A DNA stretch of 35,379 bases from contig DVDV01000059.1 in the NCBI GenBank assembly GCA_015296075.1, positions 1-35,379 on the forward strand. Direction: 5' to 3'. Below are positions 1 to 35,379 of this stretch, piece by piece (position 1 is the stretch's first letter; each line of letters starts with the position of its first letter). This DNA is from Leptolyngbyaceae cyanobacterium M33_DOE_097. GTDB taxonomy: Bacteria > Cyanobacteriota > Cyanobacteriia > Leptolyngbyales > Leptolyngbyaceae. The position numbers and the translations under genes are program-made. The notes under the pieces are model-generated. The model had not been told where the DNA came from and did no database searches. It saw only the letters and a program-made list of their open reading frames with translations.

Positions 1-122
1 AAACATTTGTACTGTAGCCAGAGTGTCTAAAGACTTGTGCACTCAATGTTATAAACGGCAGAATGCGGGTTTCAGCCATTCATAAACGTTAAAACCGGAC
101 GTTTTTATGAGAATCATTCTCA
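1..122 (+). repeat. Direct repeat copy A, Fur-box promoter region
   Basis: These 122 bases align without gaps to 35258-35379. I count 24 mismatches, so about 80% identity. The best conserved parts are the first 15 or so bases, the stretch around ACGGCAGAATG and the last 15 bases. The copy ends in a 7-1-7 palindrome and lies 58 bp before the exporter gene, so it is probably a duplicated iron-responsive promoter. No open frame is evident in it. The family may have more copies elsewhere in the genome. Confidence 0.85.
108..122 (+). promoter_or_regulatory. Fur box upstream of siderophore-type exporter
   Basis: The 15-mer TGAGAATCATTCTCA is a perfect inverted repeat of two 7-bp arms around one base. 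This is the known 7-1-7 Fur operator layout, TGATAAT-N-ATTATCA, with G/C at the fourth position of each arm. A further half-site (GAGAATTG) follows at about 127-134. It lies 58 bp upstream of an exporter of the siderophore/cyclic-peptide family, so Fur repression under iron sufficiency is the natural inference. Confidence 0.7.
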
Positions 123-179
123 TATCGAGAATTGCTGATCTGAATGGGCTGGACTAGCAAGTTATGGCCGATTTAGTGG

Positions 180-1904
180 ATGATGAAATTCGCCTTTGAG
201 AATTCTTCGCCTGTCCGGCCAACTATGAGTCTTTTCCAATTCCTCTTGCAATCCTCGTGGCGGTTAGTTGCGATCGCAACCCTAACTGGCATCATTAGTG
301 GCGGCAGTAGCGCGGCAATTATTGCTGTCATCAACTACGTAACTGAACACGACTTCAATAACTCCCCGCTTTACATCGTGTTGGGGTTTATCGGGTTAGT
401 GCTGCTGTCATTAATCACCAACTTTATTAGCCAGCTCACTCTGATTCAACTGGCGCAGCAGGCGATTTTTGACTTACGACTGCGGCTCGCCCAACGCATT
501 CTCGCGGCTGACTTACCCCAACTCGAATCGCTCGGTGCGGCGCGACTGCTCGCGACCCTGACCGATGATGTGCAGGCCGTATCTGATGCAGTGCGACTGA
601 TCCCCTTCATTTTTGTGGATCTGGCGATCGCGGGTGGTTGCTTTATCTACATCACGTTTTTATCCTGGCAGGTGACCGTGCTAGCCCTGATCATGCTGGT
701 GGTGTGTCTGCTCATTTATCGCAATCTGTTGCGACGGGCGCGCACTAAATTAGCCTTGGCTCGCGAAGAACAAGACAGCCTGTATCAACATTTTCGGGCA
801 GTGACCGATGGCACCAAAGAGCTAAAACTGCACTACCAACGCCGACAAGCCTTTTTGCAGGAAGACCTATGGCAAACCGCAGAAGCTTATCGCCGCTATA
901 ACGTTGAAGGCTTAAGCATGTTTGCCATCATTTCTAACTGGGGCAAAATGATGTTCTTCTTCATGATTGGGCTGGCGTTGTTTATCTTGCCAGAGGTCAT
1001 GGCCGTCTCCCCCACGATGCTGTCAGGTTACATCTTGAGCTTTACCTACATGGTCGGCCCGATTGATAGCCTGATCAATCGCTTGCCTGTAATCAGCCGT
1101 TCAGGGGTTGCGCTTGAAAAGATTCAGTCGTTGAATCTGATGCTAAACGATCGCGCTGAAAAGACAACGCCGCCCCCTGCAACGCTACACAACTGGCAGA
1201 CGCTCCAACTCAAACGGGTGACTCACACCTATGGTAGCGATCGCGATGACAGACGATTCATCTTAGGTCCGCTTGACCTGAACTTACACCCCGGCGAGAT
1301 TGTGTTTTTAGTGGGTGGAAACGGCAGTGGCAAATCGACTCTAGCGAAGATCATTACCGGGCTTTACATCCCTGAAAACGGCGAAATTTGGTTCGATAAC
1401 ATCCCCATTACCGATAGCAATCGCGAGTGGTATCGGCAACATTTTTCAGTAGTCTTCGCTGATTTCTTTTTGTTTGCTCGGCTCTTGGGGCTACAAGATC
1501 CCAACCTTGAACAGCAGGCGACCAAACGATTGCGACAATTGCAACTCGACCATAAAGTCACCATCGAAGCAGGTACGCTTTCAACAACGGCCCTATCTCA
1601 GGGGCAACGCAAACGGCTAGCGCTCTTAACCGCCTATCTTGAAGATCGTCCCGTTTACCTGTTTGATGAATGGGCTTCTGACCAAGACCCTGTCTTCAAA
1701 GATTTGTTTTACCGGGAGTTGTTACCCCAACTACGTGATCGCGGCAAAGCCATTATCGTGATTAGCCACGATGACCATTACTTTCATCTGGGCGATCGCC
1801 TGATCAAGCTTGACTATGGGCAACTCGAATATGAGCGATCGATGCCTTATCAAGACTTGTCAAGTAGAGAAAATGATGCAAACAAAATATTAGATGATTG
1901 GTAG
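180..1904 (+). CDS. Cyclic peptide/siderophore export ABC transporter
   Basis: A half-size ABC exporter of 574 residues. An N-terminal transmembrane domain (about residues 20-310, several hydrophobic segments) is fused to a nucleotide-binding domain. The Walker A GGNGSGKST is near residue 378, the signature LSQGQRKR near 471 and the Walker B YLFDEWASDQ near 492. The domain layout and the phrase LLSGYILSFTYM-like TM region fit the SyrD/PvdE family, which exports cyclic peptides and siderophores across the inner membrane. The start is either of two tandem ATGs at 180 or an ATG at 225 (MSLFQFLL), which better matches family N-termini; neither has a strong ribosome-binding site. The Fur box upstream supports a siderophore role. 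The actual substrate cannot be read from sequence. Confidence 0.85.
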   Translation: MMKFAFENSSPVRPTMSLFQFLLQSSWRLVAIATLTGIISGGSSAAIIAVINYVTEHDFNNSPLYIVLGFIGLVLLSLITNFISQLTLIQLAQQAIFDLRLRLAQRILAADLPQLESLGAARLLATLTDDVQAVSDAVRLIPFIFVDLAIAGGCFIYITFLSWQVTVLALIMLVVCLLIYRNLLRRARTKLALAREEQDSLYQHFRAVTDGTKELKLHYQRRQAFLQEDLWQTAEAYRRYNVEGLSMFAIISNWGKMMFFFMIGLALFILPEVMAVSPTMLSGYILSFTYMVGPIDSLINRLPVISRSGVALEKIQSLNLMLNDRAEKTTPPPATLHNWQTLQLKRVTHTYGSDRDDRRFILGPLDLNLHPGEIVFLVGGNGSGKSTLAKIITGLYIPENGEIWFDNIPITDSNREWYRQHFSVVFADFFLFARLLGLQDPNLEQQATKRLRQLQLDHKVTIEAGTLSTTALSQGQRKRLALLTAYLEDRPVYLFDEWASDQDPVFKDLFYRELLPQLRDRGKAIIVISHDDHYFHLGDRLIKLDYGQLEYERSMPYQDLSSRENDANKILDDW

Positions 1905-1942
1905 ACTAACGACACTTGGATTTCGCGTGCTTCGGAGGCAAC

Positions 1943-2884
1943 ATGACCCAACGCCCGATTATTCTTGGCATTGTAGGAGACAGTGCAGCTGGCAAAACCA
2001 CTCTCACCAAGGGGATTGCTCAGTTTTTAGGTCCTGAAAATGTAACCGTTATCTGCACTGACGACTATCACCGCTACGATCGCAAACAACGGGCAGAGTT
2101 GGGCATCACCGCGTTGCACCCCGACTGCAACCACCTCGACATCATGCAGCAGCATCTCTCGCTGCTCCGCACCGGGCAACCGATTCTCAAACCCATCTAC
2201 AGCCACAAATCTGGCACCTTTGAGGCACCTGAATACATCAAACCTAACAAGTTTGTAATTGTTGAAGGGTTGCTGGGTTATTCGACACGTGGGGCACGCG
2301 ATTGCTACGACGTGAAGGTTTATTTAGCTCCTCCAGAAGAGCTACGAGCTAAGTGGAAGGTGCGGCGAGACACCCAAAAACGCGGTTACAGCGAAGATCA
2401 GGTTTTGGCTGAGATGCAAAAACGAGAGCCAGACTCTGAAAGCTTTATTCGTCCGCAACGGCAATGGTCTGACATTGTTGTGACGTTTTATCCGGCGGCA
2501 GACGACCCTGATGCCAGCAGTGGCAGCTTAAATGTACGTTTGGTTCTGCGGCCAAACATTCCGCACCCAGAGCTGACCCAGGTTGTGACCACCGACCCTA
2601 ATGACCACAGCTCTGCTATTCGTCTGGGGTTAGACCGCGATATGGGCAAGCCAGTGGATGTGTTAGAAATCGATCGCCATGCCACGATCGATCAAGTCGC
2701 TCAGCTTGAACGGTTCATTTGCAGTGATTTGCCGGACCTGTTGCACGTTTGCAACCGCGAGGTAAATCCCGAATTAGGAAAAGTTACAGGCACTACAGGC
2801 GAAACGTTGCAGAGCTATCCTCTCGCTTTAACTCAGTTACTGATTGCCTTTCACATGCTGAAAGCTACTAAAGGTCACGTGTAG
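1943..2884 (+). CDS. Divergent phosphoribulokinase-like kinase
   Basis: A 313-residue P-loop kinase of the phosphoribulokinase/uridine kinase superfamily. The P-loop GDSAAGKTT is at residues 12-20. ICTDDYHRYDRKQR at 37-50 matches the PRK catalytic and substrate-binding segment, and PIYSHKSGTF and VIVEGLLG follow as in PRK. The ATG at 1943 is preceded by GGAGG at about 1934, so I prefer it to the upstream TTG at 1916. The canonical cyanobacterial enzyme has Cys in the P-loop (GDSGCGK) and a C-terminal Cys pair used for thioredoxin/CP12 control. This protein has Ala in the P-loop and lacks the C-terminal pair. It lies 38 bp after the exporter and is probably cotranscribed. It is likely a paralogue of the Calvin-cycle enzyme; its substrate is unknown. 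Confidence 0.8.
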   Translation: MTQRPIILGIVGDSAAGKTTLTKGIAQFLGPENVTVICTDDYHRYDRKQRAELGITALHPDCNHLDIMQQHLSLLRTGQPILKPIYSHKSGTFEAPEYIKPNKFVIVEGLLGYSTRGARDCYDVKVYLAPPEELRAKWKVRRDTQKRGYSEDQVLAEMQKREPDSESFIRPQRQWSDIVVTFYPAADDPDASSGSLNVRLVLRPNIPHPELTQVVTTDPNDHSSAIRLGLDRDMGKPVDVLEIDRHATIDQVAQLERFICSDLPDLLHVCNREVNPELGKVTGTTGETLQSYPLALTQLLIAFHMLKATKGHV

Positions 2885-35143: not shown

Positions 35144-35257
35144 TTTTTGCACACCTTCAGAATGACCATCCATCCAATTTCACAAAATAATTTTGGCGCA
35201 AAAATTGCGCGCTGAATTCACAGGTTGGAGGCTCAATTTCCAGCAATTCTCATTTTG

Positions 35258-35379
35258 AAACATTTGTACTGAAGTCAGAGCCTCTAAAGGCTTGTGCGCT
35301 CAATTTTATGAACGGCAGAATGGGTATTCCAGCCATTGATAGCTGTTCAAAATGAATATTTTTGTGAGAATTATTCTCA
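35258..35379 (+). repeat. Direct repeat copy B, Fur-box promoter region
   Basis: The second copy of the 122-base repeat, ungapped against 1-122 at about 80% identity. It ends exactly at the window edge with a Fur box (35365-35379). By analogy with copy A it probably is the promoter of an iron-regulated gene beginning just outside the window to the right. Confidence 0.85.
35365..35379 (+). promoter_or_regulatory. Fur box at right edge
   Basis: TGAGAATTATTCTCA is a perfect 7-1-7 palindrome identical to the left-end Fur box except for the central base. The gene it controls is not in the window. Confidence 0.65.

Follow-up and report, generated by a model that had tools for sequence, protein, structure and literature searches.

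Introduction

Phosphoribulokinase (PRK) is usually treated as the single redox-gated entry point to ribulose 1,5-bisphosphate (RuBP) in cyanobacteria. According to PMC9199185 and PMC9978339, enzymes of class IA are controlled through an N-terminal and a C-terminal pair of cysteines, the latter of which matters both to regulation by thioredoxin and to the GAPDH/CP12/PRK complex. Residues that bind ribulose 5-phosphate (Ru5P) and ATP are named for the PRKs of Methanospirillum hungatei and R. sphaeroides in Kono et al. 2017 (PMC5241800), where Arg59, Tyr98, His100, His55, Lys151 and Arg154 of the M. hungatei enzyme are given for substrate or ATP binding.

The described proteins closest to the gene studied here, which we call prk2, are those of three PDB entries, 9QKN (Gloeocapsa PCC 73106) and 9QKO/9QKP (Chroococcidiopsis/Hyella disjuncta PCC 6712), which were released on 2026-04-08 under the depositors' title "Structure of the cyanobacteria specific PRK", the molecule of 9QKN being named "Uridine kinase". 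All three match prk2 with an E-value of about 1e-145, at 67-70% identity over the whole chain, and share its P-loop and its four cysteines in the alignments. No difference of kind was seen between them and prk2, which is a further member of the family in an unusual genomic place. The family is already recognised by the structure depositors; the gene itself is ordinary, and it is the physiological question that is interesting. A search of openly available articles found no paper on this family, on which a preprint or a subscription publication may exist; in its available text, PMC12587747 mentions PRK only in passing.

Outside the cyanobacteria, the only two places in the plasmid collection that cover at least 80% of prk2 are the PRKs of Mycobacterium intracellulare (WP_069954220.1, 45.4% identity) and Allomeiothermus silvanus (WP_013159592.1, 44.2%), both homologous over 98% of the chain and, like prk2, without the P-loop Cys and without the CP12-type Cys loop. 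Each is located in a RuBisCO gene cluster, where the genes for the form I large and small subunits are accompanied by cbbX, rpe, tkt and an aldolase gene; in the Allomeiothermus cluster prk follows cbbX on the same strand, and in the Mycobacterium cluster a rpe-tkt-prk run is oriented away from the RuBisCO genes. We give a probability of roughly 0.7 to the reading that prk2 encodes a second genuine PRK (Ru5P and ATP to RuBP), related to this RuBisCO-cluster type and kept beside the plant-type enzyme.

Results

The prk2 gene and its product

The window, by which we mean the whole stretch of DNA that was analysed, is 35,379 nucleotides long and corresponds to contig C287:1-35379 of a cyanobacterial genome of 6.96 Mb. 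Three features concern the gene itself:

1943..2884, plus strand: prk2, a 313-residue cyanobacteria-specific phosphoribulokinase, the second PRK (PF00485, E 5.6e-37; NCBIfam PRK07429, 460.7 bits, curated cut-off 236; PDB 9qko, E 8.9e-146; AF2 model with pLDDT 88 and Z 40.2 against 9qkn)
1976..1999, plus strand: P-loop GDSAAGKT in the translation, with Ala where class IA has the regulatory Cys (A16, invariant in 148/148 distinct sequences)
2720..2752, plus strand: C260 to C270, a family-specific invariant C-terminal Cys pair (148/148 sequences)

The PRK07429 score covers residues 1-310 and places the protein among the phosphoribulokinases; with the NCBIfam uridine kinase profile it scores 107 bits, well under the 180-bit cut-off. 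An earlier note on this DNA had described a PRK paralogue whose P-loop has Ala instead of Cys and which lacks the canonical C-terminal Cys pair, and had asked for a second, canonical prk in the genome. This description holds. A canonical prk of 334 residues lies on contig C210 (L001) as the sole other PF00485 match in the genome, its P-loop reading GDSGCGKS, and the alignment confirms that the insert IDWIPCGRKLTCSYPGIR, which bears the C-terminal pair, is absent from prk2; the segment of the IDWIPCGRKLTC loop, in which the pair of class IA PRK lies, is likewise missing. The two proteins share the kinase core, the catalytic residues and membership of PRK07429, but their identity (40%) is confined to the first 210 or so residues and the C-terminal regions are different.

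The best AlphaFold model of prk2 has a mean pLDDT of 88.0 and a pTM of 0.88, the remaining four models reaching 42-77. In structure comparison it matches 9QKN/9QKO/9QKP with Z 38.6-40.2; the next-best fold match is the archaeal PRK of M. hungatei (5B3F, Z 30.2), which at 28% identity is of another class, followed by plant-type PRKs (25.8-28.7) and that of R. sphaeroides (20.8). Solved uridine and uridine-cytidine kinases, which have the P-loop kinase core in common with prk2, give Z 21.0-23.2, but over about 190-200 residues only, whereas the match to PRKs spans the whole chain.

Catalytic residues and substrate

Residue conservation was counted on the 148 distinct prk2 sequences obtained from 160 loci (lowest pairwise identity 62%), leaving out a gene split in two frames (L144, G393) and a fragment (L178, G153). 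Sixteen positions were checked, namely twelve catalytic or P-loop positions and four cysteines, and all 16 (D13, A16, C38, D40, H43, R47, C62, Y86, H88, E108, K139, R142, D143, R147, C260 and C270) are invariant in 148/148. The entire alignment has 89 invariant columns out of 313, and 24 of these lie past residue 185. By motif reading, the six M. hungatei residues listed above (Arg59, Tyr98, His100, His55, Lys151, Arg154) correspond to R47, Y86, H88, H43, K139 and R142. The roles of D40, E108, D143 and R147 are those given to them in work on the R. sphaeroides enzyme. Among the positions checked, prk2 appears to retain what a PRK needs and, because the Ru5P- and ATP-binding and catalytic residues are invariant, it is most likely a true Ru5P kinase, and one lying outside the known CP12/thioredoxin switch.

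The note had proposed that the enzyme phosphorylates another substrate. Such a change of function, in which the PRK scaffold would now act on another sugar phosphate or on a nucleoside, is unlikely in our opinion. It could find some ground in the limited extent of the identity to canonical PRK, which concerns the kinase core only, in the fact that the cell already owns a canonical prk, and in the segment following the Walker B Glu, which reads EGLLGYST in prk2 versus EGLHPLYD in canonical PRK, a difference by which substrate preference could differ as well. The RuBisCO-cluster PRK of Allomeiothermus, however, also deviates in this segment, every Ru5P/ATP residue checked is unchanged in all 148 sequences, the model fits PRKs rather than uridine kinases over its full length, and the nearest full-length non-cyanobacterial relatives, those of the plasmid collection, reside in RuBisCO clusters; the claim of another substrate is not upheld by these data. 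Even less probable is that prk2 has become a PRK-like protein of mainly regulatory role, which does little catalysis itself and acts, for example, as partner or competitor of canonical PRK: a C-terminal region of different make, a new invariant Cys pair and the presence of two PRK matches in each of 78 genomes would be compatible with it, but the checked catalytic set is wholly retained, unlike in typical pseudo-enzymes.

Cysteines

The note had also called the protein free of redox cysteines, which is correct for the known class IA pairs. The P-loop Cys of the class IA N-terminal pair is Ala in all 148 sequences and its partner position is retained as C38; together with C62, C260 and C270 this makes four cysteines of the family's own, none of which varies. 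Neither C260 nor C270 is present in the PRKs of Mycobacterium and Allomeiothermus or in the two canonical PRKs used in the alignment. The two fall in one of the model's less confident regions, with blocks of 75, 71 and 64 over residues 261-290. Because they form a new invariant pair, calling prk2 "redox-free" would be premature, and so would the note's term "light-insensitive".

Phylogeny

Trees were built with 18 of 50 prk2 representatives (less than 86% identity, chosen from the 148 sequences) and 12 canonical rows; L187 (truncated), L189 and L193-L196 were left out. In all four trees prk2 and the two RuBisCO-cluster PRKs are separated from canonical prk, so that prk2 lies outside the canonical group, as its description as a paralogue would have it. 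Support for the branch uniting prk2 with the RuBisCO-cluster PRKs was 88/84 in the tree of all 40 rows, and three outgroup sets gave 97/96, 80/77 and 99/97, values that are moderate in two of the four trees; these two rows are the sole ones of their kind in the trees and have long branches, and the canonical group itself received 15/69 in the all-rows tree. Holding canonical prk together with the RuBisCO-cluster PRKs was rejected by the AU test in two outgroup sets (p 0.038 and 0.0088) and was not rejected in the third (p 0.127). On these trees, prk2 groups with the PRK type that non-oxygenic bacteria carry in their RuBisCO gene clusters. Unlike those PRKs, which adjoin form I RuBisCO and cbbX, the cyanobacterial prk2 is an accessory gene, and most of the loci read contain no such cluster and no Calvin-cycle operon among the neighbours.

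Distribution

In an even draw of 386 genomes from the phylum, a full-length prk2 was found in 78 (66-100% identity, the window's own genome counted), each of which has two PRK matches in our table, a part of the second matches being seen among the places listed. These represent about 60% (78/128) of the Cyanobacteriia rows with a PRK match at E <= 1e-25. Median genome size in that class is 5.8 Mb with prk2 vs 4.3 Mb without, and the small-genome family f19 had no prk2 match in this sample. A nifH match above cut-off was present in 45/78 genomes with prk2 vs 13/50 class rows without it, as raw counts in which kinship is ignored; there is no strict link with nitrogen fixation, because 33 of the 78 prk2 genomes have no nifH. 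The plasmid and phage collections contain no close relative (best plasmid matches 44-45%, best phage matches about 29-35% over part of the chain), and spread of prk2 by mobile elements was rejected on this basis.

A second RuBisCO was sought in five genomes, the window's genome among them, and each gave a single large-subunit match. Two of the same five, the window's genome and a congener, encode a CbbX-like AAA protein (G000:C93:8049-8858 in the former, 38% identical to Allomeiothermus CbbX), possibly RuBisCO-activase-like, which was not found in the other three relatives. Two further kinds of PRK-related protein came to light. One cyanobacterial genome without prk2 has a very divergent second PRK-like protein of 35% identity and no cysteine (L192, G223:C240:8110-8919). 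A separate PRK-domain family of about 660-710 residues (L187-L190, L115, L198, L199) occurs in phylum members that do not photosynthesise and on plasmids from E. coli, Hirschia and Azospirillum, its plasmid neighbours being glycosyltransferase, PI-PLC-like and HAD genes.

Genomic neighbourhood and the exporter junction

The following features lie upstream of prk2 and at the far end of the window:

1..137, plus strand: the right-hand 137 bp of a MITE-like repeat of 154 bp, truncated by the end of the contig (at least 41 matches in its own genome)
108..122, plus strand: Fur-box-like palindrome TGAGAATCATTCTCA (7-1-7), inside the repeat and upstream of the exporter (repeat-end pattern search)
180..1904, plus strand: ORF of a cyclic-peptide/siderophore-type ABC exporter (TIGR01194, 470.6 bits, cut-off 286.2), whose last residues run into the prk2 leader
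1834..1942 (left edge approximate), plus strand: probable ancestral prk2 leader, now also holding the 3' end of the exporter ORF (local alignment)
35241..35379, plus strand: second copy of the repeat, 80% similar over 122 bp, at the right-hand end of the contig and bearing TGAGAATTATTCTCA at 35365-35379

The exporter does adjoin prk2 as the note had reported, its ORF ending 38 bases before the gene. This arrangement was seen in the present strain only. A pattern scan of species genomes yielded 452 stretches encoding a relative, and in none of the best 80 of these did an exporter adjoin prk2; in a second set of 80 loci (the G loci, in which G179 and G171 each appear twice) an exporter was near prk2 once, at the window itself. 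The two genome sets may overlap, and the flanks seen vary in extent, with only 600 bases upstream in L031 and about 1.5 kb upstream in many G loci. Among 24 genomes examined, the window's genome included, 13 relatives hold both genes and in none are they adjacent, the two being more than 300 kb apart in two relatives and on different contigs in 11, a result that contig breaks make slightly uncertain; one of the 11 is the same-genus genome, with the genes on C2 and C15.

Other neighbours recur. Within the best 80 of the 452 loci, radC was in the fetched flank of prk2 in 46, and canonical prk with petH was about 3 kb away in three. A gene of family PF04029 (2-phosphosulfolactate phosphatase, ComB-like) is divergent from prk2 in 11 of the same 80 (examples at L004:4783-5538, minus strand, and L114:10592-11326, plus strand); the Allomeiothermus RuBisCO cluster has a ComB-like relative at 30% identity, and this protein is a possible partner of the prk2-type PRK. 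The order prk-petH-comB-prk2, in which the two PRK genes occupy opposite strands at a distance of about 3 kb, was seen in L004:1823-6945, L006 and L081, and may be old.

Sequence comparison at the junction suggests how the exporter came to stand here. Homology to the congener's exporter is strong up to about position 1832 and weak beyond, and in 11 relatives the protein alignments end at residue 553-565 of 574. Window positions 1782-1942 align locally with the leader that precedes prk2 in the closest relative (L003, prk2 protein 89% identical, no exporter at the leader) with a score of 67 vs shuffled maxima of 39 and 44; that leader is identical to the one in the same-genus genome G386 (L128). 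As the alignment extends to 1782, into exporter-like DNA, the left edge of the leader is blurred. The motif GAGCGATCG, which resembles the HIP1 octamer, stands at the junction of exporter and leader. The simplest account would be a rearrangement that joined the exporter gene to the prk2 leader near 1832, with the exporter ORF now stopping inside the leader and prk2 retaining about 109 bp of leader of its own; the position of the exporter beside prk2 in this strain is thus probably a product of DNA rearrangement. Read-through from the exporter into prk2 would be possible, in an arrangement that is not the usual one of the family.

The palindrome and the repeat

Positions 1-179 of the window have at least 41 matches in the genome (40 of 230 candidates scored), and a pattern for the repeat end that includes the palindrome has 61+48 = 109 copies with at most two mismatches, vs 0 for the reversed control. 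Every place listed, a part of the 109, matches the pattern exactly, and the listed copies carry the Fur-box-like palindrome TGAGAAT(C/T)ATTCTCA. The one complete copy seen (G000 contig C73:16243-16396) is 154 bp long, a length that we assume for the others, and is bounded by CAGCAATTCTC...GAGAATTGCTG; the repeat has 11-bp terminal inverted repeats (CAGCAATTCTC) and two subfamilies. The surroundings of 18 distinct copies were read, and 17 of these copies lie at contig ends. Six relatives searched for the repeat gave one single copy (77%), one 30-bp match and, in four, none. Since the palindrome belongs to the repeat, it provides no evidence for the Fur-controlled exporter that the note had assumed. 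Neither a conserved linkage to the exporter nor a gene-specific Fur site, as a Fur-regulated siderophore operon would have, was found for prk2. With a regular expression that recovered the exporter gene in only 3/11 relatives' loci, the best Fur-like sites before it had 4-6 mismatches; a 19-base Fur consensus had 0 matches in the congener's exporter locus. If FurA binds the palindrome, the repeat could place many loci under iron control.

The note's iron-linked expression of prk2 was rejected on the neighbourhood counts and the repeat-borne palindrome. That prk2 is an enzyme of siderophore or iron-stress metabolism, co-transcribed with a Fur-controlled exporter, is highly improbable: the 38-bp gap between the two ORFs on the same strand, with no terminator called in between, and the palindrome upstream would speak for it, but the exporter was seen as a neighbour in this strain only, the palindrome lies in a repeat whose end has 109 copies in the genome, and a similar prk2 leader is present in the closest relative with no exporter before it.

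Discussion

The reading of prk2 as a second genuine PRK has consequences for how RuBP is made. The enzyme would phosphorylate Ru5P and, lacking the class IA pairs, would stay outside the GAPDH/CP12/PRK complex; its position outside that complex would make RuBP supply possible at times when the main enzyme is switched off or is limiting. Any redox control would act through its own cysteines, C260/C270, C38 and C62. It is possible, although we consider this extension doubtful, that many beta-cyanobacteria run two PRKs under different switches, the class IA enzyme obeying thioredoxin and CP12 and being shut in the dark, and prk2 being exempt from both and governed by a cysteine switch of its own, C260-C270 (possibly with C38/C62), to sustain RuBP synthesis in the dark, under dim light or while the cell recovers from stress. 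If true, this would amount to a parallel control of the branch point of CO2 fixation that is left out of textbook models of the cyanobacterial Calvin cycle.

Because prk2 is without the known switch and has invariant cysteines of its own, models with one PRK may be incomplete. This may apply to knock-out, flux and redox models alike in the Nostocales and in many filamentous species.
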